Part shown: in pieces, positions 1 through 11,666 of the stretch
Position numbering within the stretch: position 1 is the first letter of the stretch
Layout of the letters: each line of letters starts with the position of its first letter
NCBI GenBank assembly: GCA_016213455.1
Contig: JACRAG010000216.1
Location: 1-11,666 of the forward strand
Direction: 5' to 3'
Source of the DNA: Anaerolineae bacterium
GTDB taxonomy: Bacteria > Chloroflexota > Anaerolineae > Anaerolineales > Anaerolineaceae
Length of the DNA: 11,666 nucleotides
Made by a program: the position numbers and the translations under genes
Notes under the pieces: model-generated
The model's input: only the letters and a program-made list of their open reading frames with translations
The model's database searches: none
Told to the model about the DNA's origin: nothing

Positions 1-426
1 CAGCCAGCGGTGCTGCGTGCGCTTAAAGCGGATATTGCCCTCGGCGCAGGCAAACTGGGTCACCGAGTAGATGCTGTTGGGGTACTTGCTGCAATACACG
101 CTGCGCCTGGAAAGCAGGCTGGTCAGCTCGGTGATGGCGATGCCGTACAGTTGATGCTGAAATATATGGTCGATACGCTGCTGCAGGTCGGGTATCTGCG
201 GCTCCAGCCCTTTCAGCAGGCGCTTGGCAATCTCGCGCAAGAATATCCCGGATTTACAGGCAGGATCCAGAAATTTGGTGTCCGGATTCTGGAAAAGTTC
301 CTGTGGGAGCAAATCCAGCATCTGGTTGGCGATTTCCGGCGGGGTGAACACTTCATCGTTGGACAAATTCGCTATGCACGACAGCACGTCCGGGTTGTAT
401 ATTCCACTGTAAAAATCATCCGCCAT
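1..426 (-). CDS. Eco57I-type N6-adenine DNA methylase, N-terminal part (runs off left edge)
   Basis: The reverse strand is open from an ATG at 426 to position 1, giving 142 residues with no stop. Residues about 24-35 carry NDEVFTPPEIAN, a target-entry segment typical of N6-adenine methylases. Residues about 53-64 carry FLDPACKSGIFL, which is SAM-binding motif I. The catalytic NPPY motif is not reached, so it should lie beyond the window. From memory of the family, such proteins are the main methylase of Eco57I- or type III-like restriction-modification systems, acting on cytoplasmic DNA. The start has a strong AGGAGG about 10 bases upstream and overlaps the end of the preceding methylase gene by 11 bases, so translation is probably coupled. 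The partner nuclease or helicase is not visible. Confidence 0.82.
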   Translation of the reverse strand, partial: MADDFYSGIYNPDVLSCIANLSNDEVFTPPEIANQMLDLLPQELFQNPDTKFLDPACKSGIFLREIAKRLLKGLEPQIPDLQQRIDHIFQHQLYGIAITELTSLLSRRSVYCSKYPNSIYSVTQFACAEGNIRFKRTQHRWL

Positions 427-1132
427 GATCCTGTACCCTCCTGTAATGCGATATATATTTTTTTACGAATTCGCCTTCGTCATTGGGCTTTTCTGTCTCA
501 AGACGATCAAACAGCGTTTGCTGCGCCGTATCCGGCTTTTTCATTGGCTTGCCACTGCCGAAAATGTCCCGGCCTTTTTCATCACCCGCGAGCAGCTTGT
601 CAAAGGTATAGTCGCTGCGTTGCAGATTAAAGCCGGTCACGAAAGCCCATTCAGAAAATACAATCGGCTCGTTGATATCCTTGCCGCTCGCGTCCACTTT
701 TTTTAGGCTGAGCGCATTGCCACACACAATATTGCGGCTGAGAATGAACCGGACGGCTTCGCGGCAATCTTCGTTGACTTCCTTCTTACAGACCGCAGTA
801 TATTCCTTATCCCATATTGCAAACATGCGCGCGCGGCAGGCATCCACGTTATCTTGAAGAATGTCCACGCCGTATATACTGGTGGCAGCCAGCACAGCAT
901 ACTTCTCATAATCGCTGGGGCTTTTTCCGTATTTCCTTTTGACAACCGCCAGTTTACGGCGCAGGATCTCCGCCAAAAAATTGCCATCGCCACAGGCAGG
1001 TTCCAAAAACCGGCTGTCGATGCGTTCGGTTTCCTGCTTGACCAAATCCAGCATGGCATTGACCTCACGCTCGGCAGTGAACACTTCGCCGTGGTCTGTC
1101 ACACGCTGTTTGGATTTTACCTGTCTGGACAT
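416..1132 (-). CDS. Small N6-adenine DNA methylase-like protein of a restriction-modification operon
   Basis: This 238-residue protein carries HGEVFTAEREVNAMLDLV (about 14-31) and SAM motif I, FLEPACGDGNFL (about 42-53), so it resembles the N-terminal half of N6-adenine methylases. I see no [DNS]PP[YFW] catalytic motif anywhere in it. Its C-terminal part instead contains IVFSEWAFVTG followed by a YTFDKLL-like stretch. It may therefore bind SAM without methylating alone, or work as a subunit with the Eco57I-type methylase that overlaps its 3' end by 11 bases. An AGGA sits about 8 bases before the ATG. The gene follows the HTH regulator after 59 bases and is probably co-transcribed with it. The methylase fold is clear; the exact biochemical role is inferred. 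Confidence 0.8.
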   Translation of the reverse strand: MSRQVKSKQRVTDHGEVFTAEREVNAMLDLVKQETERIDSRFLEPACGDGNFLAEILRRKLAVVKRKYGKSPSDYEKYAVLAATSIYGVDILQDNVDACRARMFAIWDKEYTAVCKKEVNEDCREAVRFILSRNIVCGNALSLKKVDASGKDINEPIVFSEWAFVTGFNLQRSDYTFDKLLAGDEKGRDIFGSGKPMKKPDTAQQTLFDRLETEKPNDEGEFVKKYISHYRRVQDHGG

Positions 1133-1729: not shown

Positions 1730-2110
1730 CTAATCTTTCCTCAAATTCATGATGAATTTTCGAAGCGAATAATTTTCGCTTAGTTCGCCTTCTAACGCTT
1801 CTATTTGGTAATCATCTGATGCTCGAGATCGTTCAAACTCTGCACTTTGAATGGACAAACTGATACCAGAAACAAGTAGGTCAATTTCTTGTTCCGGTAT
1901 CCCATTTTGAGCAAAATTTGAATATTTTGATTTCATATTCGTGAACCAAGATAGATATACCTCCATCAATTCGATCTCTGTCTTCAATTGATAACGGTAG
2001 TATCTGTCCTCCCAACGATCAATTTCGTTCAGCCGTGTAATAAACAGAGTGACCCGTGAGTTGATATATTCTTCTAAAAGAACGAGTTTTTCTGAAGAAA
2101 AAAGGCTCAA
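1730..2110 (-). CDS. Unrecognised small, mostly helical protein (TTG start)
   Basis: This 126-residue protein is not recognised. It is charged and rich in predicted helix, with many Glu, Arg, Tyr and Leu, no signal peptide and no membrane segment, so it is probably cytoplasmic. The start is TTG at 2110. It is supported by AGGAGG only four bases upstream and by the natural N-terminus SLFSSEKLVLLEEYI. The gene is visibly more AT-rich than its neighbours on the right, which suggests recent acquisition together with the following restriction-modification operon. Its promoter is most likely the repeat-type promoter at 2185-2214. It could be a defence accessory protein by location, but nothing in the sequence shows this. 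Confidence 0.65.
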   Translation of the reverse strand: MSLFSSEKLVLLEEYINSRVTLFITRLNEIDRWEDRYYRYQLKTEIELMEVYLSWFTNMKSKYSNFAQNGIPEQEIDLLVSGISLSIQSAEFERSRASDDYQIEALEGELSENYSLRKFIMNLRKD

Positions 2111-2184: not shown

Positions 2185-2214
2185 ATTATAGAATCACCCC
2201 GCCCGGCGAGTCAA
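2185..2214 (-). promoter_or_regulatory. Repeat-type promoter, copy A
   Basis: On the minus strand TTGACT (2209-2214) and a perfect TATAAT (2185-2190) are separated by 18 bases. They lie 57 bases after the stop of the SAM methyltransferase gene and about 75 bases upstream of the TTG start at 2110. A 9-bp inverted repeat (2197-2205 with 2217-2225) places the -35 hexamer inside its 11-base loop. The GC-rich surroundings match copies B and C closely. Confidence 0.75.
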
Positions 2215-2225
2215 CGCGGGCGGGG
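2197..2225. repeat. GC-rich hairpin of the dispersed repeat, copy A
   Basis: The arms CCCCGCCCG and CGGGCGGGG pair perfectly around GCGAGTCAACG. The same loop and right arm recur at 3117-3145 and 3861-3891. Read on the minus strand, this would form an RNA hairpin shortly after the stop of the methyltransferase gene. No good U-tract follows, so a terminator role is only possible. Confidence 0.75.
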
Positions 2226-2270
2226 GAGTCAGTTTTGTTAGGTGCTGCGCCAGGCGGAGAATCTTGCCCG

Positions 2271-2969
2271 TTACGCCCGCCAATATACCCTGAACTTCCA
2301 GCGGATGGTGGTCTTGTTTTCCCGCTTCAAATGCGCAATCGCTTTCTTGCCAAAGATAAACCCATAGGTGTTCACAATATGCTCGACCGTCCCATAGTCC
2401 TGGTTCGAGAAGATATCCTGGTAGGCAAAATGGAACTCTTCGATAAAAATCCGGTCCACCTCGTCATCCACCTTCTCCACATCCTCGATCACATCATACA
2501 GATCGCCCCCATACCAACCGGGTGGGATGCCAACGTAAACCACCGATCCCTTCGCCACACGCAGGCCTTCACGGATAAAATCACGATACTGACCGGGTGG
2601 GTACAGCGCCAGGGTAATCCCGGTGACCCAATCTACCGAGTTGTCCGCCAGCGGCAGCGCCATGGCATCGCCGCTCAAAAAGGTGACCCGCCCCGCTCCA
2701 CTTCCTTGCACCTTTTCTTGGGCTTTCTGCAGCATGGCTGCCTCACGCTCAATGCCAATCACCTTCGCCGCGTAGTGCGCCAGCGCCAGGCTTGAACTGC
2801 CGGTTCCCGCCCCCACATCCGCCACTTCCTTGCCGTGCAGGTCGAGGATGCCTGACAGTTGCTCGTAGACTGTGGGGGAATAGGGCGTGTTCGAAAATGC
2901 TTCGTACACTTCCGGGTAATCGCGGTAAAGAATATCCCAGCGGTTCTCAATAGACTCAGGTCGTGACAT
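2271..2969 (-). CDS. Class I SAM-dependent methyltransferase (Methyltransf_11-like)
   Basis: This 232-residue protein has the Rossmann-fold methyltransferase signature: motif I VADVGAGTG (about 49-57), an acidic residue after the second strand in GIERE (about 72-76), GDAMALP and a SVDWVTG motif. The substrate is not evident; the fold is shared by enzymes acting on small molecules, lipids and proteins. The reading stays open to 3134, but the ATG at 2969 has AGGAGG four to five bases upstream and starts at the domain, while the extra codons run through the promoter leader. It is probably a single-gene transcript from the repeat promoter at 3106-3134, and its stop is followed by the next repeat promoter (copy A). 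Confidence 0.85.
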   Translation of the reverse strand: MSRPESIENRWDILYRDYPEVYEAFSNTPYSPTVYEQLSGILDLHGKEVADVGAGTGSSSLALAHYAAKVIGIEREAAMLQKAQEKVQGSGAGRVTFLSGDAMALPLADNSVDWVTGITLALYPPGQYRDFIREGLRVAKGSVVYVGIPPGWYGGDLYDVIEDVEKVDDEVDRIFIEEFHFAYQDIFSNQDYGTVEHIVNTYGFIFGKKAIAHLKRENKTTIRWKFRVYWRA

Positions 2970-3036
2970 GACTCCTCCTTGGGGAATCAGCGAACAGTGC
3001 TTGACGGGTCGCCGGACCATGAGGGCAACGGAATGC

Positions 3037-3112
3037 TGATCCGCGGCACATTCGCCGCATTGCAGGGCGCATCCGGCAGGATAACACGGAGACCCGTCGA
3101 ATTTCAGTATAG
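3037..3112 (-). repeat. Duplicated leader segment (pairs with 3783-3857)
   Basis: This stretch, lying mainly between the -10 of promoter B and the methyltransferase start, aligns along its length with 3783-3857. Shared blocks on the plus strand include TGATCCGCGGCA, CGCATT, CACGGAGACCC and AATTTCAGTATAG. Together with the promoter, about 120 bases are common to the two sites. It would be part of the 5' untranslated RNA. Confidence 0.7.
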
Positions 3113-3134
3113 GAAACCTCGCCGGGCGAGTCAA
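3106..3134 (-). promoter_or_regulatory. Repeat-type promoter, copy B
   Basis: On the minus strand TTGACT (3129-3134) and TATACT (3106-3111) are separated by 17 bases. They lie 40 bases after the stop of the isoprenylcysteine methyltransferase-like gene and upstream of the SAM methyltransferase at 2969. The predicted leader is about 130 bases long. Confidence 0.78.
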
Positions 3135-3145
3135 CGCGGGCGGGG
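3117..3145. repeat. GC-rich hairpin of the dispersed repeat, copy B
   Basis: This is the same element as copies A and C. The right arm CGGGCGGGG and loop GCGAGTCAACG are identical. The left arm CCTCGCCGG has one wobble and one mismatch, so the stem is slightly weakened. Confidence 0.7.
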
Positions 3146-3173
3146 GAGGCAGTTTATGGAATGACTCAACCTG

Positions 3174-3704
3174 CTATTCAATCTTTCTGTGAAACCAGGG
3201 AATGAACATCGATACTTTTTTTCGATATTCCTCATATTGCCTGCCGAAATCTTTCATCAACCGCCTCTCCTCCATCTTCACCACAACCGCCAGCATAAAA
3301 GTAAAAATTGCGCCGATCAACACAACCGCGGTCAATGAATTCAAATAGAGTGCAAACGCCAGGTAGATCAGCAGGGTTCCAAATAACATGGGGTTTCTGG
3401 TGTATCGATAAGGCCCGGAAACAATCAGATTCCTGGTTTTTGGGCTGATTTCGATGTTTCCGATTTCCACAGGACCGCCCTCTCCCACCGTGTTTTGGAT
3501 AACCACCGACCCAATTCCATACACGAATCCTGTCACCAGCAGGATCACCAGAATGATCCAGCGAATCACCTCATTTTGGATCATTTCTATTCGATAAACA
3601 CGATCGCACCATGCTGTAATTCCATAAATGATTGAAGGCACCAAAATCATGACAAGAAAACCACCCACAAGATAACCCAGGATCATCTTTCTATCCCTGT
3701 TCAT
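3174..3704 (-). CDS. Isoprenylcysteine carboxylmethyltransferase-like membrane methyltransferase
   Basis: This 176-residue membrane protein has hydrophobic segments at about 8-30, 48-70, 106-120 and 124-142. It carries the family signature GPYRYTRNPMLFG (about 97-109) and, near the end, EERRLMKDFGRQYEEYRKK (about 145-163), which together form the SAM- and substrate-binding C-terminal part of ICMT/PEMT-type enzymes. Members methylate isoprenylcysteine, phospholipids or unknown small molecules in the membrane; the substrate here is unknown. The ATG at 3704 has AAGGAGG about six bases upstream. It appears monocistronic, transcribed from repeat promoter C, with promoter B starting 40 bases after its stop. 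Confidence 0.85.
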   Translation of the reverse strand: MNRDRKMILGYLVGGFLVMILVPSIIYGITAWCDRVYRIEMIQNEVIRWIILVILLVTGFVYGIGSVVIQNTVGEGGPVEIGNIEISPKTRNLIVSGPYRYTRNPMLFGTLLIYLAFALYLNSLTAVVLIGAIFTFMLAVVVKMEERRLMKDFGRQYEEYRKKVSMFIPWFHRKIE

Positions 3705-3782
3705 GAATGCCTCCTTCCCGTCACTGCCAGGCTTTTTAATACAATCCGCTCAACCGCATACCGTCCAATTATTCCGGTCTTG

Positions 3783-3857
3783 TGATCCGCGGCAAATCCG
3801 TCGCATTCCAACCCGAATCCGGTTGGACGCACGGAGACCCATTCAATTTCAGTATAG
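3783..3857 (-). repeat. Duplicated leader segment (pairs with 3037-3112)
   Basis: This is the counterpart of the leader at 3037-3112. It contains a 7-bp inverted repeat, TCCAACC (3807-3813) with GGTTGGA (3821-3827), which could form a hairpin in the leader RNA. That hairpin is not preserved in the other copy, so it is probably not the shared function. Confidence 0.68.
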
Positions 3858-3879
3858 AAACCCCCGCCCGGCGAGTCAA
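3851..3879 (-). promoter_or_regulatory. Repeat-type promoter, copy C (best preserved)
   Basis: On the minus strand TTGACT (3874-3879) and TATACT (3851-3856) are separated by 17 bases, 42 bases after the GNAT stop. It should drive the membrane methyltransferase at 3704, with a leader of about 140 bases. Confidence 0.8.
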
Positions 3880-3891
3880 CGCGGGCGGGGG
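3861..3891. repeat. GC-rich hairpin of the dispersed repeat, copy C
   Basis: A perfect 10-bp stem, CCCCCGCCCG with CGGGCGGGGG, surrounds an 11-base loop holding the -35 hexamer. On the plus strand it is followed by AGGCAG and then seven T. On the minus strand it is followed by TTTC and the -10. Neither side is a textbook intrinsic terminator, although both are suggestive. Confidence 0.78.
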
Positions 3892-3920
3892 AGGCAGTTT
3901 TTTTGGGGCAGGCATTTCTT

Positions 3921-4565
3921 TCAGAACTGGATGGTGGTTTCGTCTGCCAATAACCGGATCAGGCTGCCCGGCGTATCCATGATTCTCAGGCGTTCAAACT
4001 CTGGTCCGGGCATAAATTCCGCGAGGATGGGCAGACTTTTCTCCAATTCGTTCACCCGGGTCGCCAGTTTCCCCCCTTTCAGCATCTGGAAGCCAAAATC
4101 CGCATACAGTTTGATGGCGCGGAAACTGCCCGGTTGGGTATGCAGAATGATCGGATAGTCGCTCCGGTCAAAACGCCGCATAATGGCGGAGAGCACCGCT
4201 CTGCCCAACCCTTTTCCTTCGTAGGCTTTTCGCGTCTTCAACCAATGGATGGAATGGATCTTCCCGTATGCTTTCCAATGCGAACAGGTAGCCACCGGCT
4301 GATCTGCTTTGTCGCACACAAAGAGGGTGTTCCGGAAAAAAACATCCATGTGCTTGCTGTACGTGTCGTGGATGATCTGGTTCATCATGCCTTCATATTC
4401 CGCCGGCACACGGTCACTGTCAAACGGGAAGGCTTTCCAGAGCTCCAATTCATCCGGTCTGCAATTTCGAAACGTATAGTCGGGGCCCAATTCGGACAGC
4501 GCGGATGGGTTAATTTGCTCGCACAGCATAAAAATATTGTAATCGGGGATATCTTCTTCTCTCAT
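3921..4565 (-). CDS. GNAT-family N-acetyltransferase
   Basis: This 214-residue protein has the GNAT acetyl-CoA motif A in YEGKGLGRAVLSAIMRRF (about 115-132), where the QxxGxG/A loop appears as EGKGLG. A typical motif B follows in SFRAIKLYADFGF (about 147-159). GNAT enzymes move an acetyl group from acetyl-CoA to an amine; the acceptor cannot be told here. The protein is cytoplasmic, without signal or membrane segments. The ATG at 4565 has only a weak purine-rich GAGA upstream. The gene lies 89 bases after Imm5-like protein 1 and may be read through from it. A lone -10-like TATACT at 4636-4641 could be a separate promoter, but I see no matching -35. Confidence 0.85.
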   Translation of the reverse strand: MREEDIPDYNIFMLCEQINPSALSELGPDYTFRNCRPDELELWKAFPFDSDRVPAEYEGMMNQIIHDTYSKHMDVFFRNTLFVCDKADQPVATCSHWKAYGKIHSIHWLKTRKAYEGKGLGRAVLSAIMRRFDRSDYPIILHTQPGSFRAIKLYADFGFQMLKGGKLATRVNELEKSLPILAEFMPGPEFERLRIMDTPGSLIRLLADETTIQF

Positions 4566-4635
4566 GGCTGCGGTCTCTTTTGTTTACGACGGTTTGCTGC
4601 CCGCCAGTGGACGGGATGGATGCCGTGCTGCAGGG

Positions 4636-4641
4636 AGTATA
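4636..4641 (-). promoter_or_regulatory. Possible -10 element before the GNAT gene
   Basis: TATACT occurs on the minus strand about 70 bases before the GNAT start, matching the -10 used by the repeat promoters. No recognisable -35 lies 16-18 bases upstream, so this is weak. Confidence 0.25.
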
Positions 4642-4654
4642 AACCCGAAGTTAG

Positions 4655-5161
4655 CTAAAACCCATCGTCTTTGACGATTTTGACCTGAATCCGGTCACCC
4701 TTCTTTTGAAGGATGATGCGCTTCATCATCTCCTGCCTCAGCTGCGCCGGCAGATGCTCGGATTGCCAGCGCCATTCCTCGGCGGTATGGCGCTCGGCGT
4801 TGGCAGGGTCCATTGCCGCAACAGCTTTGAGCGCGTACAAAGCGCCACCGTAGGCATGTTGAGGCACGTGAGCCGTCGCCACCGCCTGGCCCGCGGCGCG
4901 CGCCGCAAAGCAAGCCGCGGCGTGGTCCTGTGCCGCCCGGGCGGCGGCATGCGCCCCCAGCGAGGCTGCGCGGATCTCCGCCATGTGAAAGATGCCGGTT
5001 TCAACCCAGGCCCGGCACGCCTCCAGGGCTTTGCGGGGGCGGTCATCCCCCGGATAGGCTTCCTCGAAGAGGGGCAGCACCCTCTCGGCGCAATCGGCGG
5101 CCCAGGCTGCCATGATTTTCTGATCTTCCCGGCTATATTTTTTATAGGTGGTTTTTGCCAT
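4655..5161 (-). CDS. Imm5-like putative immunity protein 1
   Basis: This 168-residue, alanine-rich, all-helical protein resembles the putative immunity family Imm5: AAWAADCAERVLPLFEE (about 18-34), DDRPRKALEACRAW (39-52), then an HAAARAA, AARAAGQAVATAHV and HAYGGALYALKA series (71-113). Imm5 proteins are predicted, mainly by gene neighbourhood, to neutralise partner toxins of polymorphic toxin systems; many copies, like this one, have no toxin beside them. A TTG start at 5224 is possible but has no ribosome binding site and overlaps the upstream gene. I chose the ATG at 5161, though its AGGA is unusually far (about 15 bases). The gene follows the nucleoside hydrolase after 52 bases, so they probably share a transcript. 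It is a paralogue of the gene at 7018-7533. Confidence 0.72.
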   Translation of the reverse strand: MAKTTYKKYSREDQKIMAAWAADCAERVLPLFEEAYPGDDRPRKALEACRAWVETGIFHMAEIRAASLGAHAAARAAQDHAAACFAARAAGQAVATAHVPQHAYGGALYALKAVAAMDPANAERHTAEEWRWQSEHLPAQLRQEMMKRIILQKKGDRIQVKIVKDDGF

Positions 5162-5213
5162 ACGGATTACAGCGTTTCCTGTGGACCGCGATTCTTTCGG
5201 TATTTGCGGGCGT

Positions 5214-6311
5214 TTATCGCGCAAACGTCTCGTTCAGACTCTGTTTGACGCGATCGGCGTCCGGCTGCAGGCAGACGTACAGGTTGGGCGCCGCATCTGG
5301 AACCACGCGGGTCTGCCCCAAAGTCGGACCATCCTGCGTGATAACTTCCAGGTGCAGCGGCTGAAAGATACACGATTCCGGTTGGCGCATCACGACCGCC
5401 GCGGTCAGGTCGAAAATTTCAGCCTGCTTCAGCTTCAAACTGTTGAACATCAAGTCGTAGAGATCGGCAACCATCCTGGCTTTCTCATCCCCCTGGCGCC
5501 AGGGGTGGATCTCTTTCTGACTGAGCAGCACCAGATGTGTGGCATCGAGCGGCACCATATACAGCGCCAGCCCAGACTCGAACACCGCTTTTGCGGCTTG
5601 CGGGTCGGCGATGATATTCCACTCTGCAACACGATTGTCCGAGTCAGCGATCAAACCGGTGATATTGCCGGGGACATACACCGCGCCCCCCATGAAGTAA
5701 ACCGCCGAAATCTTCTCCTTGATCGCCGGGTCGAGCTGCAACGCCTGCGCCAGGTTGGTAAACGGTCCGCTCACAAACAAGGTGACCGGTTCCGGCGACT
5801 GAAGGATCGCTGAGACCATCAAAGAGGGGGCATCCTGGAACGGGTACGGTTTGTCAGCCTTTGGCAACGGGTAATCCCAGAAGTTGTCGCTGAGTTCGCG
5901 CAGCCAATCGGGGAAAGGCATGCCGCCAGCCAGGGGCTGATCCTGTCCTGCGCCAAGCGGGATATCACCGAAACCCAGGTTCTCCAGCACACACCCCACG
6001 TGCTGGATGTACAGACTGGGGTGGGCTTCACCATAAGAAATGGTGACCGCCTGGATGGATGTACCTGGAGTACCCAGCAGATAGAGCAACGCCGCCAACC
6101 CGTCGCGGCTGCCGTCATCGTCGTAGAGCAAGCGCATTTTCCTGGACGACCCAGCCGGCTCATCAGCCCTGGCAGTGAGGTCCGGCGATGCCGGCGGCAC
6201 GAATGAGCATGTGGCAGGGCCCGCCGGCGCAGCAGTCGATGCGGCGCACCCTGCGGCAAAGAGCACGAGCAATGTCAGACCGATGACAGAAAACGAATTT
6301 CCACTGTCCAT
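5214..6311 (-). CDS. Lipoprotein-type inosine-uridine nucleoside hydrolase family protein
   Basis: This 365-residue protein starts with a lipoprotein signal: hydrophobic VIGLTLLVLFAAGC with the lipid-modified Cys at 22, then a low-complexity linker. The mature part has nucleoside hydrolase features: YDDDGSRDGLAALLYLL (63-79) at the calcium and ribose site, GPFTNLA (182-188), a YFMGGAVYVPGNI stretch (205-217), AEWNIIADPQAA (229-240) and a C-terminal FDLTA whose Asp (301) fits the last metal ligand. The family cleaves the N-glycosidic bond of nucleosides. The usual DxDxxxDD reads DDDGSRDG here, so the final Asp is Gly. Surface location suggests nucleoside scavenging outside the membrane. The ATG at 6311 has GGAG about seven bases upstream; the longer reading to 6347 enters the promoter repeat. 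Confidence 0.85.
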   Translation of the reverse strand: MDSGNSFSVIGLTLLVLFAAGCAASTAAPAGPATCSFVPPASPDLTARADEPAGSSRKMRLLYDDDGSRDGLAALLYLLGTPGTSIQAVTISYGEAHPSLYIQHVGCVLENLGFGDIPLGAGQDQPLAGGMPFPDWLRELSDNFWDYPLPKADKPYPFQDAPSLMVSAILQSPEPVTLFVSGPFTNLAQALQLDPAIKEKISAVYFMGGAVYVPGNITGLIADSDNRVAEWNIIADPQAAKAVFESGLALYMVPLDATHLVLLSQKEIHPWRQGDEKARMVADLYDLMFNSLKLKQAEIFDLTAAVVMRQPESCIFQPLHLEVITQDGPTLGQTRVVPDAAPNLYVCLQPDADRVKQSLNETFAR

Positions 6312-6340
6312 CCTGGTCTCCGTTCCTTTTAATAGCGCGA

Positions 6341-6363
6341 AATCCACCCGCCCGGCGAGTCAA
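6341..6363 (-). promoter_or_regulatory. Repeat-type promoter, copy D, with damaged -10
   Basis: TTGACT (6358-6363) with the conserved CGCCGGGCGGG spacer start is present 50 bases after the stop of the cysteine-rich gene, upstream of the nucleoside hydrolase. No -10-like hexamer occurs at 17 or 18 bases. The nearest is TATTAA at 23 bases, as if GCGC had been inserted. The outer hairpin arm is also lost. Activity is doubtful. Confidence 0.5.
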
Positions 6364-6412
6364 CGCGGGCACAATGATCCGTGCTCAGCCGGTCGCAGAT
6401 GACGGCTGGGTT

Positions 6413-6961
6413 CTACGCACCATCCTGGATGCAAATCAGAAATTGACAGTGATCATCACCCTGGAGGATGGATTGCAGCAATTTAACCTCCACATGCCGG
6501 TCAAGCAGTGTTTCAAAAAGCTTCTGATACCAACCGCAAGAGCAATGGCAATAGGTGTCCGAGAAAGTCTGCCTGGTTTTGCTCACCGATCCGCAGTAAC
6601 ACCGCTCGTAAGTGGCATGAATGGCCTCGCCGCTGCGCCGCAAATGACCACCGCCGATGTGAGCCTGGTTCAGCCGTTCCAACAAATCGTCCAGATCCCG
6701 GGCATCTGCCTGCAGCCGGCGCGCCTTTTCGATGACGCTGCTGCCAATGCAGCGGTGACCGCACGCCCGCATGACGGCTTGACGGGTGTCCACATCGACT
6801 TCCCGATCCAGCAGCTCCATCAGAGCATGAATGGAACGCGTCTTTTCTTGAGCGCCGGTCAGCGTGGCGTAGTTTGCACAGGCCTGGAGAATCTGGCTTT
6901 TGACCGGATGGTTAAGCCGGAGTGCGATGTTGCTTTGAAACGTATCGACCTTGAAGGGCAT
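6413..6961 (-). CDS. Cysteine-rich protein of unknown function (possibly DUF6144-like)
   Basis: This 182-residue protein has a helical N-terminal half with ACGHRCI (66-72), then a C-terminal domain with ERCYCGSVSKTR (119-130) and YCHCSCGWYQKLFE (137-150), ending in VEVKLLQSILQGDDHCQFLI (157-176). The clustered Cys residues suggest metal or iron-sulfur binding or redox sensing. The last segment resembles the small-ligand regulatory domains that end in a Gly-Asp-x-x-Cys-x-Phe pattern. I associate the layout with DUF6144 proteins, but from memory only. The longer reading to 7120 overlaps the Imm5-like gene; the ATG at 6961 has GGGAGGA nearby and was chosen. It lies 56 bases after Imm5-like protein 2 and may share its transcript. 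Confidence 0.7.
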   Translation of the reverse strand: MPFKVDTFQSNIALRLNHPVKSQILQACANYATLTGAQEKTRSIHALMELLDREVDVDTRQAVMRACGHRCIGSSVIEKARRLQADARDLDDLLERLNQAHIGGGHLRRSGEAIHATYERCYCGSVSKTRQTFSDTYCHCSCGWYQKLFETLLDRHVEVKLLQSILQGDDHCQFLICIQDGA

Positions 6962-7017
6962 ATCTTCCTCCCACCAATTTCCTGGGTGACCGGTCTTGAG
7001 CGTGCCGGGTTTGCCGG

Positions 7018-7533
7018 TCAACCATCGAAGACGAACCAGCAGATCTCGTTGCGCAAGCGTTGATCGTCCAGCACCAGCGCGCGAATCGCATCCGGCAACT
7101 GCTCGCGCTGCCAGGCGCACTCCAGGCGTCCTGCCAGGTCCCGTTCAGGCGCCAGGATGGCAGCCCGGGCAGCCCGGATGGCATAAGCGGCGGCGCCCAA
7201 CTCGTGTGCCGCAACATGCGCCACAGCCGCAGCCTGTCCGGCGGCAAACGCCGCCTCTCTTGCCGCCCCGCGCAGCGTTCGGGCAGCTGCCATGGCGTGA
7301 CCGGCAGCATTGCGGGCCTGCATCATGGCAATTTCGCCGCGCGCCCATGCCCGCACCAGGGCGATCGCCTGGCGGGGACGCAGATCGGATGGCTGCACCG
7401 CCTTGAACAGGTGCAGGACGTGTTCCGCGCAGGTCGCTGCCCACAGGGCAAGCAGCTGGTGGTCAGAGTCGGTTAACGTGCCCCCGCGGTGCAGGGTGAT
7501 GAACCTGGGGTCGCGTTTCTCTGGCAATATCAT
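7018..7533 (-). CDS. Imm5-like putative immunity protein 2
   Basis: This 171-residue, alanine-rich helical protein is a paralogue of the protein at 4655-5161. Equivalent blocks are LALWAATCAEHVLHLFKA (28-45), SDLRPRQAIALVRAWARGEI (49-68), AAFAAGQAAAVAHVAAHELG (94-113) and AAYAIRAARAA (115-125). The C-terminal ERDLAGRLECAWQREQLP (130-147) matches the family's tryptophan-containing end. The predicted role is neutralising a toxin, but none is encoded nearby. The ATG at 7531-7533 has AAGGA about 10 bases upstream. The two copies are clearly diverged, so the duplication is old or they arrived separately. A fragment resembling the 3' end of this gene lies at about 9909-9960. Confidence 0.72.
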   Translation of the reverse strand: MILPEKRDPRFITLHRGGTLTDSDHQLLALWAATCAEHVLHLFKAVQPSDLRPRQAIALVRAWARGEIAMMQARNAAGHAMAAARTLRGAAREAAFAAGQAAAVAHVAAHELGAAAYAIRAARAAILAPERDLAGRLECAWQREQLPDAIRALVLDDQRLRNEICWFVFDG

Positions 7534-7584
7534 CGGGTGGTTTCCTTCTGCCCGGCGGCTGGCGTCAACCTCACCGCAGGAAAA

Positions 7585-8121
7585 TCAATTCCGGGTAAAA
7601 CTCACTTTTTGGGTATCGATGACCTGTGCCCCGCTTTGACCGAGCGCCCGGTTCCATTTCTCGATCAAATCAGGCGCATCCCCGCTGTAGCTGCTGTGCC
7701 CATCGCCCACCAGCACAACCCGGTAACCCTCGTCCACGGCTCCCAGGCAGGTCGCCTTGACGCACCCGTGGGTCACCAACCCGGTGATGACCAGCTGCCC
7801 GACCTGCCGCTTCTCGAGCTCTTCGCGCAGCGAGGTATCTTCAAAGGCGTTGCCGTGATGTTTTTCAAGGATCAATTCGTCTGCCCGCGGTTGAATTTCG
7901 GGGTGCAGCTGCCAGGCATCCGAACCCGATGCCAGGGATTTTGGATTGGCATGCTGGATGTAAATCACCGGTGCGCCTGCCAGGCGGGCCTGGTCAATCA
8001 GAGCGTTGATGTTGGTGAGAAGCTCCTGCGCATGATAAATGGGCGTCGATTTCTCGAACAACCCTTTTTGCACATCGATCACCAGCAATGCCATTTTAGC
8101 CTGTTGTGAATCTGGACTCAT
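7585..8121 (-). CDS. Isochorismatase-type cysteine hydrolase
   Basis: This 178-residue protein has the full catalytic triad pattern of the isochorismatase/nicotinamidase superfamily: Asp16 in ALLVIDVQKGLF (11-22), Lys87 in LEKHHGNAF (85-93) and Cys120 in TGLVTHGCVKAT (113-124). The superfamily hydrolyses amides (nicotinamide, carbamoylsarcosine, ureidoacrylate) or vinyl ethers (isochorismate); the motifs alone do not choose between them. The usual cis-peptide position before the Cys reads LVTHGC, which is acceptable. It is cytoplasmic. The ATG at 8121 has GGGAGG about six bases upstream. It lies 51 bases upstream of Imm5-like protein 2, so the two may be co-transcribed. Confidence 0.88.
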   Translation of the reverse strand: MSPDSQQAKMALLVIDVQKGLFEKSTPIYHAQELLTNINALIDQARLAGAPVIYIQHANPKSLASGSDAWQLHPEIQPRADELILEKHHGNAFEDTSLREELEKRQVGQLVITGLVTHGCVKATCLGAVDEGYRVVLVGDGHSSYSGDAPDLIEKWNRALGQSGAQVIDTQKVSFTRN

Positions 8122-8148
8122 CGTTTGCCTCCCTGGAAAATGGTTGTG

Positions 8149-8218
8149 GGCGCTTCGCCGCCCGTTTCAACGGGCTTGCATCCCACTTGCGGTCAAAGGG
8201 TTCGTCCGGTGGCAAGTG
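8149..8218. other. Inverted repeats in the 213-base gap before the isochorismatase-type gene
   Basis: Three symmetrical elements lie close together: GGCGCTTCGCC (8149-8159), the 16-base palindrome GCCCGTTTCAACGGGC (8160-8175), and CACTTGC (8184-8190) with GCAAGTG (8212-8218) spaced by 21 bases. They sit 28-97 bases before the ATG at 8121. They could be leader RNA hairpins, an operator or the relic of a terminator after the NTF2-like gene; no T-tract follows. No good promoter hexamers were seen between 8122 and 8334. Confidence 0.45.
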
Positions 8219-8334
8219 CGGCGGGGGCTGATTTGCAGCGTCCAGCGTGGTCACCGCGTGGAGGTGAGCCTGCGGGATCATCGAATGAATACACTCAAGT
8301 GCAGGTTCACGCGTTGAAAGGCAGCTTTCACCGC

Positions 8335-8739
8335 TTATTGTTCTCGGAAAGTGTTTTGATCCTGCATAATGAGCCATTGGTTGGCGCGCTTTACGAGAAT
8401 GAACGTTCGGATTTGTTTTTGGTTCTCACGCCGAACTCCATCGGGCGTGGTGTGCGGACTCATCTTACTCGGAACCGTGACAATTGCAGCATTCGTTGAC
8501 GCAAACCGCACGTCAATTTCTTCCGGTGTATCCGTGACGTCTCGTAGAAATGAAGCGTGAACAATCTGCAATTCGCTCAACACTGCCTCGCGCCCGCGTG
8601 CCCAGCCACCCAATGGATTGATGTGCACCCAATCCACCGTGGTAAACTCCGATATTCTACTGAAGTCGTGCTTGTTGAAGGCGTCGTAGAATGACTGCAC
8701 GGCTTTCCGCACCCTTGTCTCCTGGCTGATGGAACTCAT
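8335..8739 (-). CDS. NTF2/SnoaL-like (SgcJ/EcaC-type) protein
   Basis: This 134-residue protein matches the small NTF2-like fold: an N-terminal helix pair RVRKAVQSFYDAFNKHDFSRISEF (9-32), then VDWVHINPLGGWARGREAVL (35-54), the usual turn and third helix, and a C-terminal strand pair ending in FILVKRANQWLIMQDQNTF (113-131). The pattern is that of DUF4440 or SgcJ/EcaC-family stand-alone proteins, which serve as small-molecule isomerases, cyclases or binding proteins. No substrate can be named. The ATG at 8739 has TGGAGG upstream at good spacing. It is preceded by repeat promoter E with a leader of about 160 bases and followed after 213 bases by the cysteine hydrolase. Confidence 0.82.
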   Translation of the reverse strand: MSSISQETRVRKAVQSFYDAFNKHDFSRISEFTTVDWVHINPLGGWARGREAVLSELQIVHASFLRDVTDTPEEIDVRFASTNAAIVTVPSKMSPHTTPDGVRRENQKQIRTFILVKRANQWLIMQDQNTFREQ

Positions 8740-8830
8740 TAACCGGCCTCCAAATTCAAGGTAATGCTGGTGAACGGTTGTATTCGCGGATAGGGTTTGC
8801 GGGCTGCGATGTTGGATCGGGCGTACTTAA

Positions 8831-8859
8831 TGCTTGAACGGTTTACTAACCGTGAAGCA
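8831..8859 (-). other. Leader hairpin upstream of the NTF2-like gene
   Basis: ACGGTT (8838-8843) and AACCGT (8848-8853) form a perfect 6-bp stem with loop TACT. Beyond a small internal loop, TGCTT (8831-8835) and AAGCA (8855-8859) extend it by five pairs. It falls inside the predicted 5' leader transcribed from promoter E. TGAACGGTT is repeated directly at 8771-8779 and 8835-8843. No function is evident. Confidence 0.45.
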
Positions 8860-8904
8860 ATCAATTCGCCTGTGCTCCGGGCAACATGGCTTCCCCTCGC
8901 TTTC

Positions 8905-8934
8905 AGTATAAGGCGGGTTGGTGGCGCGAGTCAA
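8905..8934 (-). promoter_or_regulatory. Repeat-type promoter, copy E
   Basis: On the minus strand TTGACT (8929-8934) and TATACT (8905-8910) are 18 bases apart, 72 bases after the stop of the metalloprotease gene. The flanking GC-rich palindrome has decayed, but the hexamers and the neighbouring CCCGCG upstream of the -35 are kept. It should drive the NTF2-like gene. Confidence 0.7.
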
Positions 8935-9005
8935 CGCGGGCAAGGATGATTTTCAGCGAACATCGCCCGGTCTGGGAAGCGTTCGACGCGGAACTGTCCC
9001 CCTTA

Positions 9006-9872
9006 CTAGGGTGCGTAACCGCTCTCTGCCAGGATCTCCTGCGCTTCCTTGTTCATCAAATCCATCACGCTTTGCTCGGGGTGCTGGTGCAGATAAGCCT
9101 GCACGATATGATAGCCAATCGTGTAGGCTGTGCCCCCGGGCGTTCCGGTAGCCGGATCGCCAAAAAAGAAGCGCTCATACACCGCGCCATCATTTCCCGG
9201 GAGATATTCCTGCATCCGTGCCCACTGGACGCTTTCTTCTTCAGGCGTCAGGGCGTGGATCCAGCTCGGCTGCATTTCCGGATAGAGCATGCTGGCAAAG
9301 CTGTCGGCTTCCCCATCGATCATCAAGCCGGTGAGCAAATCCATGCTGGTCTTTCCCAACACCCCAAAGTAATGATTCCCCCAGATGGCATGATGGTATT
9401 CATGCGCCAGCACATAGGGAACCAATCGCAACCAATCTTCCCCCAATGGGCTCAGCCTGAGCAGGATGTTCTCCCCGACTCCTTCTCCAACCACGCCATG
9501 CTCGCGGACCCAAGCGTTGTCGGGGTCTTCGGCATAAATACAGACAACATGCTGCGGCACGCAGGGAGGTAGCTTCTGGGTCATCGCATCAAACGCCGCC
9601 TGCACCACTTGCTCGATCCCCGAGCGTTTCAGCAGTTCGATTTCCGCTTCCAGCCCATCCAAATTCGTAAACGGGATGGAGATGTGTTTGCGGATACGCG
9701 CTTCATTGAACTGGCCTTCCGCCCATTCCGACCAGTAAGGCTCGACGGCATATTCGAGCCATAACCGCTGCCATTCAGACGGCGGGTTCTTCCGGGCTGC
9801 CTGAACATAATCAGCCATCCCTCGATAGGCGGAAACAATTTTCAGCGAAGAAGTTGTTGAATCGGTCACCAT
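9006..9872 (-). CDS. DUF2268-type putative zinc metalloprotease
   Basis: This 288-residue protein carries the HExxH zinc site in VLAHEYHHAIWG (154-165). A downstream Glu follows in IDGEADSFASMLYP (185-198), fitting the third zinc ligand of gluzincin-like predicted proteases of the DUF2268 family. The stretch ILLRLSPLGEDWLRLVPYV (136-154) before the zinc site is also typical. No signal peptide is apparent, so it is probably cytoplasmic. The substrate is unknown. The reading is open upstream to 10028, but that part comes from a leader containing an Imm5 relic. The ATG at 9872 has AAAGGA about eight bases upstream and starts the real protein. It is transcribed from repeat promoter F, with a leader of about 180 bases. 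Confidence 0.83.
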   Translation of the reverse strand: MVTDSTTSSLKIVSAYRGMADYVQAARKNPPSEWQRLWLEYAVEPYWSEWAEGQFNEARIRKHISIPFTNLDGLEAEIELLKRSGIEQVVQAAFDAMTQKLPPCVPQHVVCIYAEDPDNAWVREHGVVGEGVGENILLRLSPLGEDWLRLVPYVLAHEYHHAIWGNHYFGVLGKTSMDLLTGLMIDGEADSFASMLYPEMQPSWIHALTPEEESVQWARMQEYLPGNDGAVYERFFFGDPATGTPGGTAYTIGYHIVQAYLHQHPEQSVMDLMNKEAQEILAESGYAP

Positions 9873-9908
9873 CGACAATCCTTTTTCAAACAGATGAATG
9901 ATTGGAGT

Positions 9909-9960
9909 GCCGTGCCAGGCACACTCCAGGTGTCTTGCCCTGTCGCGGTCAGGCGCTGCG
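9909..9960 (-). pseudogene. Relic of an Imm5-like gene 3' part
   Basis: The sequence closely follows 7109-7158, inside the Imm5-like gene 2: both contain TGCCAGGC, CACTCCAGG, TGCC and GTCAGGCGC or TTCAGGCGC in the same order and spacing. Read on the minus strand it gives DRDRARHLECAW, against ERDLAGRLECAW in the intact protein. It lies in the predicted leader of the metalloprotease, in frame with but outside the likely coding region. It is short, so convergence cannot be ruled out by eye. Confidence 0.55.
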
Positions 9961-10062
9961 GCGGCGCCAGCCGGATGGAAAAGACAACCAACAAGCTGTA
10001 TTCGGGGGCATGGCCTATGGGCATTCAACTTTCCAGACGCGCGTTGCTCCCCCGCGCCTTTC

Positions 10063-10092
10063 AGTATAGGACGGGTTGGGGCGGAGAGTCAA
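10063..10092 (-). promoter_or_regulatory. Repeat-type promoter, copy F
   Basis: On the minus strand TTGACT (10087-10092) and TATACT (10063-10068) are separated by 18 bases, upstream of the metalloprotease. The palindrome is no longer recognisable, but the TTTCAGTATAGG context around the -10 (plus-strand reading) is the same as in copies B and C. Confidence 0.7.
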
Positions 10093-10215: not shown

Positions 10216-10277
10216 TTAAGAACACCGCAACATTGTTTACAATAGAGATTGTTTTTATCTTATTTTAATGATATGAT
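10216..10277 (+). promoter_or_regulatory. Plus-strand promoter candidates for the phosphatase leader
   Basis: Two alternatives are visible. One is TTAAGA (10216-10221), 16 bases, TACAAT (10238-10243). The other is TTGTTT (10249-10254), 17 bases, TATGAT (10272-10277). The first -10 is embedded in the palindrome ATTGTTTACAAT (10232-10243), a possible operator. The stretch 10232-10280 is strikingly AT-rich. Between 10093 and 10215 I see only GC-rich sequence without a gene. Confidence 0.5.
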
Positions 10278-10310
10278 CATCACAGTGGATGCGATGATCC
10301 GGGGAACGAA

Positions 10311-10388
10311 TATGGTCGCTGGTTAGCCAGGGCGAACCATACGCGGGGAGCAAATGGCGAAACCGGCCGCGTAATGTGCCGGTTTTTT
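10311..10388 (+). ncRNA. Structured 5' leader, candidate riboswitch or attenuator of unknown class
   Basis: The leader folds by eye into a hairpin with TATGGT (10311-10316) pairing ACCATA (10336-10341). Inner pairs are CG/CG and CTGG (10319-10322) with CCAG (10327-10330) around loop TTAG. Next, ACGCGG (10341-10346) can pair with CCGCGT (10367-10372). That pairing would use C10367 of the following terminator stem and part of its loop, so the two forms compete as in transcription attenuators. It lies about 40 bases before a secreted phosphatase gene. I compared it mentally with the c-di-GMP, ZTP, fluoride and guanidine classes and found no convincing match. Confidence 0.5.
10360..10388 (+). terminator. 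Intrinsic terminator in the phosphatase leader
   Basis: AAACCGGC (10360-10367) and GCCGGTTT (10378-10385) form a perfect 8-bp stem with a 10-base loop, running into six T (10383-10388). It lies upstream of the start codon at 10431, not after a gene, so it fits conditional termination. Confidence 0.75.
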
Positions 10389-10430
10389 GATTTCCTCTAT
10401 TCAACCGTCGGTTCCCAAAGGAGTGCTTCT

Positions 10431-11666
10431 ATGCGACCGTATCGCGCGCATCGTACTCGATCATTCTTGCTCTCGATTGTGTTGTTGATCGCGCTGCTGA
10501 CCACAGCAGCGGCACAGTCCATCTCCCCTCAAAACGTTTCACTTGACAAGGGTGGTCCTGACGCTGATAAAGTGGTGTTCTTCGCCGCCGATGGACTTCG
10601 CCAGGATATCGTCGCTTCTTACGCGCAGCAAGGTCTCCTGCCCGCGATGGGCGACTTGCTCAAAAAAGGCGCATCCGCGACAGACAATGGCCTCCTCACC
10701 CAATCCCCGCCGAACACCGGCGCCGGTTGGTACACCCTGGCGACAGGGGCCTGGCCGGGTGTTCACGGCTCGACCAACAACACTTTCCACATCAATGGCC
10801 AGCCCTTCAGCAACCGCACCGCCGCCTTCGACAACGGTGTCATCCAGGCTGAAACCATCGCCCAGGCGGCAGAGCGAGGCGGGAAGCGGGTTGCGCAGCT
10901 CGAATGGGCGGGCGGCAGAAATGCGGTTATCCAGGGTCCGACAATTGATTACCGGGGATTTTTCTCCGGTCGCGGCGTTGCGACCAACTATATCAGCCCG
11001 AACGACTCGGCTGCATTTGTGGCCTCCTTCGGACTGCAGTTTGACCATCCGGCGGGTTTCGCCGGGCAGGCTCCTTTCCCCGCCGCAGCGCCCGCACTGG
11101 CTTCAGGGTGGACCAATGTTCCTGCCTCCTATAGCCCGGCCCAAGAGATGCGCTTGCGCGTTCTCGACTTTGGGACGGATAAATACGGGCTCAACGCGTA
11201 CCTGTACGATTCCACCAATGACGGCGCGACCAATTACAACAAGGTTCTCTTCTCGTTCGATAAGAATGGAGCCAACGCCGTTGCCAACCTGGGCCGAAAC
11301 CGCTGGGCAGACGTCAAGGTAAAAATCGCCGACGGCGCTCTGGCCGGTCTCACCGGTGGTATGTTAATCAAGGTGGAAGAACTGACCTCTGACCTCAGCA
11401 AGGTCCGCCTGTTCCACACCTCGGTCACCCGCGCGAATGCGTCCTGGCCGACTTGGCCGGGTGAAGCAGGTTTCAGCGGTGATTTCGCCGAATACGTGGC
11501 GCAGAAATTTGCCACATCCACCGCCGCAGACTTTGCCATCCTTGAGGCTGGCATCGTCAGTGAGCAAACCTATGTCGAACAGGGTCTGTATTGGGAAAAG
11601 AGCCATCTCCCTCTGCTGACCTATATCGTTTCCCGCTACAAACCCGACCTGCTGCTCGCCCATGTC
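10431..11666 (+). CDS. Secreted alkaline phosphatase superfamily protein (phosphodiesterase/nucleotide pyrophosphatase type), 5' part
   Basis: The reading is open for 412 residues to the right edge. Residues 11-28 form a signal peptide, SFLLSIVLLIALLTTAAA, followed by Gln, so the product is exported. DKVVFFAADGLRQDIV (46-61) supplies the first metal-binding Asp (54). PPNTGAGWYTLATGAWPGVHG (93-113) is the nucleophile segment, with Thr96 the likely nucleophile and the usual TGxxPxxHG ending. This is typical of type I phosphodiesterase/nucleotide pyrophosphatase proteins, which cleave phosphate mono- or diesters. The middle region is longer than in compact family members. The ATG has AAAGGAG about eight bases upstream. 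Expression may be controlled by the leader terminator at 10360-10388. The remaining metal ligands lie outside the window. Confidence 0.82.
   Translation, partial: MRPYRAHRTRSFLLSIVLLIALLTTAAAQSISPQNVSLDKGGPDADKVVFFAADGLRQDIVASYAQQGLLPAMGDLLKKGASATDNGLLTQSPPNTGAGWYTLATGAWPGVHGSTNNTFHINGQPFSNRTAAFDNGVIQAETIAQAAERGGKRVAQLEWAGGRNAVIQGPTIDYRGFFSGRGVATNYISPNDSAAFVASFGLQFDHPAGFAGQAPFPAAAPALASGWTNVPASYSPAQEMRLRVLDFGTDKYGLNAYLYDSTNDGATNYNKVLFSFDKNGANAVANLGRNRWADVKVKIADGALAGLTGGMLIKVEELTSDLSKVRLFHTSVTRANASWPTWPGEAGFSGDFAEYVAQKFATSTAADFAILEAGIVSEQTYVEQGLYWEKSHLPLLTYIVSRYKPDLLLAHV

Follow-up and report, generated by a model that had tools for sequence, protein, structure and literature searches.

The question raised by the 11,666-nt contig JACRAG010000216.1 of an Anaerolineae bacterium (assembly GCA_016213455.1), which was analyzed in its entirety as the window and is termed C89 below, is why one short promoter-like sequence recurs in front of genes that are unrelated to each other. 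A sequence-only reading of the window had reported six minus-strand copies of a repeat with TTGACT and, in five of them, TATACT or TATAAT 17 to 18 bases away. All six TTGACT cores are present at the positions and on the strand claimed, and the spacing is 17 bases in copies 2 and 3 and 18 bases in copies 1, 5, and 6. Four additional copies reside on a second contig of the same assembly, C577. With a probability of roughly 70%, we consider the ten sites to be paralogous sigma-70-type promoters that were duplicated before unrelated accessory genes, as in promoter propagation or putative mobile promoters. The six window copies are listed here with their E values against a family profile.

2185..2214, minus strand: copy 1, TTGACT-N18-TATAAT, 74 nt from the −10 to a TTG start, E 5.3e-11 (itself a profile member).
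3106..3134, minus strand: copy 2, TTGACT-N17-TATACT, 136 nt from the −10 to ATG 2969, E 9.7e-10.
3851..3879, minus strand: copy 3, TTGACT-N17-TATACT, 146 nt from the −10 to the start, E 2.8e-11.
6341..6363, minus strand: copy 4, TTGACT and the common GC-rich spacer start with no −10 at 17 to 18 bases, E 3.2e-7.
8905..8934, minus strand: copy 5, TTGACT-N18-TATACT, 165 nt from the −10 to the start, E 6.7e-8.
10063..10092, minus strand: copy 6, TTGACT-N18-TATACT, 190 nt from the −10 to the start, E 2.1e-5.

Matches to TTGACT-N17/18-TATAMT occur five times on the minus strand of the window and never on the plus strand, and dinucleotide shuffling, repeated 2000 times, produced none. The window also has 30 exact repeated 20-mers, versus 0 in 200 shuffles, and a loose promoter scan that returned 15 sites (shuffle mean 6.9, standard deviation 2.8) ranked the five copies first. 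Across the genome assembly (3.03 Mb in 594 contigs, 61.56% complete), TTGACT-N16-18-TATAMT is found at 5 sites in the 11.7 kb of C89 versus 3 in all remaining sequence, and the reversed pattern at 2 sites in total. The equivalent pattern with TTGACA occurs at 26 sites versus 0 for its reverse, which makes TTGACT with TATAMT rare outside the family (3 sites versus 26). By a crude mask, 18 of these 26 sites fall between open reading frames (ORFs), and the next ORF lies on the same strand for 18 sites in the downstream direction and for 9 in the upstream direction. Because of this excess over the reversed control and this placement relative to ORFs, this organism seems to use sigma-70-type promoters. 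Hexamers of this type at 16 to 18 bases are carried by seven of the ten copies, including every window copy except copy 4, and these are predicted to be active promoters.

The resemblance among the copies extends well beyond the hexamers. Two extended repeat units are evident in the window.

3037..3155, minus strand: upstream GC-rich arm, promoter 2, and the first part of the leader.
3783..3900, minus strand: promoter 3 and the matching part of the leader.

These units align over about 115 nt (71 nt at 90% identity plus 45 nt at 78%), and copies 3 and 4 on C577 have a promoter–leader segment of 87 nt in common at 93%. Spacer identity among the ten copies reaches 0.83 (mean 0.53; 6 of 45 pairs at 0.7 or above), as compared to a maximum of 0.62 (mean 0.28; 0 of 325 pairs) for the 26 TTGACA promoters. 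Copies 5 and 6 retain TTGACT and TATACTGAAA despite having spacers unlike those of copies 1 to 3. Per-column identity over all ten copies is 0.8 to 1.0 in the −35 and 0.6 to 0.9 in the −10, and is lower in the last six spacer bases (0.4 to 0.6) and in bases 11 to 40 past the −10 (mean 0.44). Since spacers, flanking bases, and two long promoter–leader segments are held in common, common descent of the copies is likely. The same common spacers and leaders lend support to the earlier suggestion that promoter modules were copied in front of accessory genes, which is probably how the present arrangement arose.

As a base-rate control, intergenic repeat pairs of at least 24 nt were found on 5 of 72 contigs of this assembly (381 kb of the 3.03 Mb), a sample that contains 12 contigs chosen for other reasons, C89 and C577 among them. 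A second set of 27 stretches (522 kb) comprised C89, C577, 20 stretches of the related genome G004, four flank-anchored stretches of relatives G001 and G004, and one of G002. Eight of these carry pairs of at least 24 nt, and among the pairs listed only those in C89 were flagged as having the promoter pattern, a flag that is evidently strict because the C577 pairs went unflagged. Two of the six other pair-bearing stretches were inspected: L227 contains a simple dispersed repeat, and in L238 the repeat, judged by eye, lies next to a transposase-like ORF.

The genes predicted to be served by the window copies are as follows.

1730-2110, minus strand: behind copy 1, no Pfam match.
2271-2969, minus strand: behind copy 2, Methyltransf_25/11 (methyltransferase).
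3174-3704, minus strand: behind copy 3, PEMT-family methyltransferase.
3921-6311, minus strand: behind copy 4, nucleoside hydrolase (5214-6311), Imm5_like (4655-5161), and GNAT (3921-4565).
6413-8739, minus strand: behind copy 5, SnoaL/DUF4440 (8335-8739), isochorismatase (7585-8121), Imm5_like (7018-7533), and DUF6144 (6413-6961).
9006-9872, minus strand: behind copy 6, DUF2268 predicted Zn-dependent protease.

By these gene picks, all six copies stand upstream of a minus-strand gene as had been claimed, and the adjacent genes are indeed unrelated, in that five of the six directly downstream genes match Pfam with no family in common and the sixth (1730-2110) has no match. The description of all copies as intergenic holds by the same picks with one proviso. 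Copy 2 falls within a longer form of the methyltransferase ORF that begins at a TTG (2271-3134), and it counts as intergenic because ATG 2969 is taken as the start of that gene. The gene runs behind copy 4 and behind copy 5 may each form one transcript. The two Imm5_like putative immunity proteins encoded in these runs (4655-5161 and 7018-7533, minus strand) have diverged to 44% identity over 52 amino acids, and neither gene stands directly behind a promoter module.

The copies on C577 were recognized by repeats and by eye.

Start 7362, plus strand: C577 copy 1, TTTACT-18-TAAAAT, leading into an Rce1-like protease gene.
Start 8518, plus strand: C577 copy 2, TTGGCC-18-TATACT, leading into a gene with no Pfam match.
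Start 9110, plus strand: C577 copy 3, no good −10, leading into an alpha/beta hydrolase gene.
Start 10142, plus strand: C577 copy 4, no good −10, leading into a Pfam 3-dmu-9_3-mt gene, with a methyltransferase next.

Because these four copies, which also lie between genes, all face same-strand genes by our gene picks, placement elsewhere in the genome appears to be neither random nor convergent. Start codons lie 74 to 190 nt from the −10 in C89 (excluding copy 4, which has no −10) and 24 to 256 nt from it in C577. For eight of the ten copies, the same-strand, between-gene placement is also obtained with a crude longest-ORF mask. The two exceptions are C89 copy 2, owing to the TTG extension, and C577 copy 1, owing to a minus-strand ORF (7385-7627) that overlaps the 5′ end of the Rce1-like gene; in both instances the Pfam-supported genes were taken as the true genes. 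Elsewhere on C577 (L026), directly before a gene at 10427, plus-strand positions 10268-10458 hold another tandem duplication of two 93-nt units that are 94% identical and contain GTTGACTATAAT and ATTGACTATAAT.

We next consider the size of the family. All ten copies, the six of C89 and the four of C577, were aligned to build the profile. When used to search the source genome and 40 relatives, it recovered these copies at E 2.8e-11 to 2.1e-5, and the next match in the source genome was at E 0.18, with no eleventh strong copy among the 139 candidates scored there. The best match in the 40 relatives (E 0.0037, genome G017) agrees at 33 of 55 positions, and none was convincing. With up to two mismatches, the 20-base core GCGTTGACTCGCCGGRYGGG is found at seven places in the source genome, of which C89 has four and C577 has three, and a third mismatch adds two places on other contigs, making 9 in total versus 2 for the reversed control. 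The same core with up to three mismatches matched 122 places in 60 relatives versus 128 for the reversed control; none of these had 0 or 1 mismatch, and nine genomes each had one place with 2 mismatches. A search for exact matches in one genome per GTDB species returned two records (Gemmatimonadota and Streptacidiphilus), where about 1.9 are expected by chance under even base content, and a search of viral contigs returned none. A shorter core, GCGTTGACTCGCC, matched 12 places in the source genome with one mismatch, five of them outside C89 and C577, versus 6 for the reversed control. DNA of copy 3 (81 bases) had no match in 60 relatives at E 0.001. Likewise, a 131-nt stretch containing copy 3 had no blastn match in plasmid and phage collections, and spread via plasmids or phages was set aside for that reason. 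Thus, the sequence-only reading was right that a repeat family exists, but not that it is dispersed, because the copies are clustered and were found on two contigs only.

The leaders offered few additional features. Folding of five of the ten leaders revealed nothing striking (z −2.08 to +0.20). A conserved leader peptide behind copies 2 and 3, assessed by eye, was rejected because a one-base shift breaks the frame (offsets 745 versus 746). A terminator role was rejected as well: although copies 2 and 3 coincide in part with terminator-like matches, such matches are fewer in the window (7) than in shuffles (13.6). A known RNA element in the leaders was also discounted, since the sole Rfam match in the window up to E 1 is a c-di-GMP-II-GAG riboswitch at 10278-10376 on the plus strand (46.8 bits versus a gathering score of 40). 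This riboswitch precedes a gene of the type I phosphodiesterase/nucleotide pyrophosphatase family. A c-di-GMP-II riboswitch also precedes the homologous phosphodiesterase gene in G004 (L228, 14786-14884, 54.2 bits), and the corresponding G001 stretch (L227) has no c-di-GMP-II match at the gathering score.

That same phosphodiesterase adjoins the C89 cluster and has its best matches in the same genus (71% and 68%). Among 40 relatives, the LysM protein adjoining the C577 cluster is matched at E 1e-30 only in the four same-genus genomes, with 64% and 60% identity in the best two. Because one flanking gene of each contig thus matches the same genus best (60 to 71%), both contigs fit this genome. 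At the other end of the window (1-1132, minus strand), two neighboring ORFs weakly match MmeI_Mtase, both below the cut-off, and short direct repeats between them (256-321 versus 992-1054) suggest a duplicated part.

The genes behind the modules are probably accessory, judging from their content and from homolog searches. Of 120 relatives, 4 have a homolog of the methyltransferase behind copy 2 (52 to 70% identity), and none of 120 has a homolog of the GNAT gene at E 1e-20. No module was detected by the profile at the loci surrounding the four methyltransferase homologs, which may not correspond to the C89 locus. Fifteen accessory proteins are absent from the 20 kb around the flank genes in G001 and G004, with the exception of a 28% match over 87 residues to the C577 methyltransferase.

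Our proposal for the origin of the ten sites can be outlined as follows. A founder promoter whose −35 lay in GC-rich surroundings (GCCCGCG-TTGACT-CGCC) and whose −10 was TATACT would have been duplicated as a short segment, which in two pairs also took part of the untranslated leader. The copied promoter would then end up before unrelated genes, either by tandem or segmental duplication or by gene insertion behind the copied promoter; both the route and the direction of copying are conjectural. A working copy would attract the housekeeping holoenzyme, with transcription beginning about 7 nt downstream of the −10 and continuing through the gene or short gene run that follows. We also considered an extension of this scheme in which GCGTTGAC is an undescribed integration or duplication point, such that genes are captured behind, or exchanged at, a promoter with its −35 edge as the breakpoint. 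Homology that starts sharply at GCGTTGAC in C577 copies 3 and 4 and at TTGACTC in C89 copies 5 and 6 is compatible with this extension, as is the retention of GCGTTGAC in copies that have no −10. Copies 1 to 3 have about 20 more bases in common upstream of the core, however, and we judge the extension to be quite improbable. The corollary that the clusters would grow as ready-to-express units with neither an integron nor a transposon is equally doubtful.

Several observations weigh against duplicated promoters as the explanation. Three of the ten copies (C89 copy 4 and C577 copies 3 and 4) are without a clear −10 and yet keep the GCGTTGAC core, so the claim that the repeat marks promoters is supported with that reservation; these copies may be weak or dead, and they presumably decayed. 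C577 copies 1 and 2 have the imperfect −35 sequences TTTACT and TTGGCC. The first ten spacer bases (0.5 to 1.0 identity) and the twelve bases 5′ of the −35 (mean 0.77) are also conserved, which exceeds the needs of a plain promoter and could reflect recent descent or a bound protein. An orientation control for the TTGACA sites that accepted any 80-amino-acid ORF within 250 nt did not discriminate, with 21 of 26 sites positive in the forward direction and 20 of 26 in the backward direction. Note that the ten copies necessarily match a profile built from them, and that stricter filters left 139 of 1150 first-look candidates in the source genome to be scored. The copy census is limited further by the incompleteness of the assembly, of which the window is one entire contig. 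The empty-site comparison is also weak, because five other C577 neighbors to the left of LysM are likewise absent in G001 and G004, and the sole neighbor in common beside LysM is ribosomal protein L19, in G001 only.

The conserved bases just described would be expected if the GC-rich dyad centered on the −35 were the operator of a local regulator, with the sites forming a regulon. Consistent with an operator, conservation flanks the −35 on both sides, GCGTTGAC persists even where the −10 is missing, copies 1 and 3 form a near-perfect dyad around the −35 (DNA fold z −4.21 and −4.10), and an HTH_26 regulator is encoded nearby (ORF 1192-1527). However, the other eight copies fold with z values of −1.31 to +0.57, so that a strong fold is present in only two of ten, and no connection is seen between the HTH gene and the sites. 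An operator also leaves unexplained the leader identity that continues well past the −10, and the copies found sit in two clusters. We therefore view a regulon of this kind as unlikely.

Recombination sites of an integron-like cassette array are the most serious rival, because integrases above the TIGR02249 cut-off are present in 12 of 61 genomes searched, the source genome not being one of the 12. The clusters consist of small same-strand genes, several of which are shortly followed by the repeat, and in gene content and layout they resemble cassettes. In addition, the homology in two pairs starts at G/TTGAC. An attC site has folded RYYYAAC ... GTTRRRY arms, and GTTGACT violates the GTTRRRY box. 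Most of the sequence held in common, moreover, lies downstream of GTT here but upstream in attC. A home-made scan at two settings found no attC-like site in C89 or C577, and its looser setting also found none in four methyltransferase stretches of relatives, which together with C89 and C577 were the only ones scanned in this way. This is a weak negative, because the strict setting recovered convincing sites in no more than 5 of the 15 stretches of relatives that bear an integrase (weak in 2, none in 8). The source genome, as assembled to 61.6% completeness, has no integrase above the cut-off (best 45.9 bits versus 265). Collectively, these observations make an integron-like array very unlikely. 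Among the relatives, integrase-bearing stretches L128, L129, L133, L135, and L136 hold attC-like sites, mostly GCCCAAC ... GTTGGGC. Separately, GCCCAACAAAGCGTGCACC, which lies about 25 nt past the methyltransferase homolog in G017, resembles the left end of an attC by eye, with no right end found.

Least probable of all is a miniature mobile repeat of the repetitive extragenic palindrome (REP) or miniature inverted-repeat transposable element type with chance promoter hexamers, for despite ten short between-gene copies and a palindrome in two, a hairpin or REP element was rejected on the grounds that only those two fold strongly, the boundaries of the two paired units show no inverted ends or target-site duplication by eye, all ten copies have a single orientation relative to genes by our gene picks, and the copies are clustered rather than scattered, with no plasmid or phage match for the copy 3 stretch.

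Duplicated promoters, the explanation we favor, have precedents, since promoter reuse by copying is already established in the form of putative mobile promoters and promoter capture. The former, together with promoter propagation, were reportedly described by Matus-Garcia, Nijveen, and van Passel in 2012 (NAR 40:10032). The term denotes homologous promoter segments before non-homologous genes in one genome. Later papers refer to this idea (PMC8049555, PMC9208149, PMC4596501, PMC5906472). The sites studied here are likewise short repeated promoter-bearing segments before unrelated genes. What may set the present family apart is that its copies have diverged, are clustered on two contigs, include part of the leader in two pairs, and have no transposon seen attached. 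Promoter capture, according to another report, activates silent or horizontally acquired genes by duplication or deletion (PMC11111574). There too a gene is put under a working promoter by a short rearrangement, and what is known from laboratory evolution in that account is seen here only as an outcome. Integron cassette arrays are similar in that small same-strand genes follow one another and several are separated by repeats, whereas the repeat in question has promoter hexamers and is placed 5′ of genes. REP/REPIN sequences are also short between-gene repeats, and two of our copies are palindromic, but the family has no conserved hairpin, is found on two contigs only, and keeps a single orientation relative to genes. 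The features that mark this case are its clustering, the leader carry-over in two pairs, and the three copies with no clear −10. A literature search combining Anaerolineae, promoter, and transcription start site found no papers, and work on promoters in the lineage seems to be sparse.

Newly acquired genes need a promoter, and ten related promoters in two clusters, placed before genes with no relation to each other, are a clear natural example of promoter reuse. A search for paralogous promoters could reveal other gene clusters of this kind.

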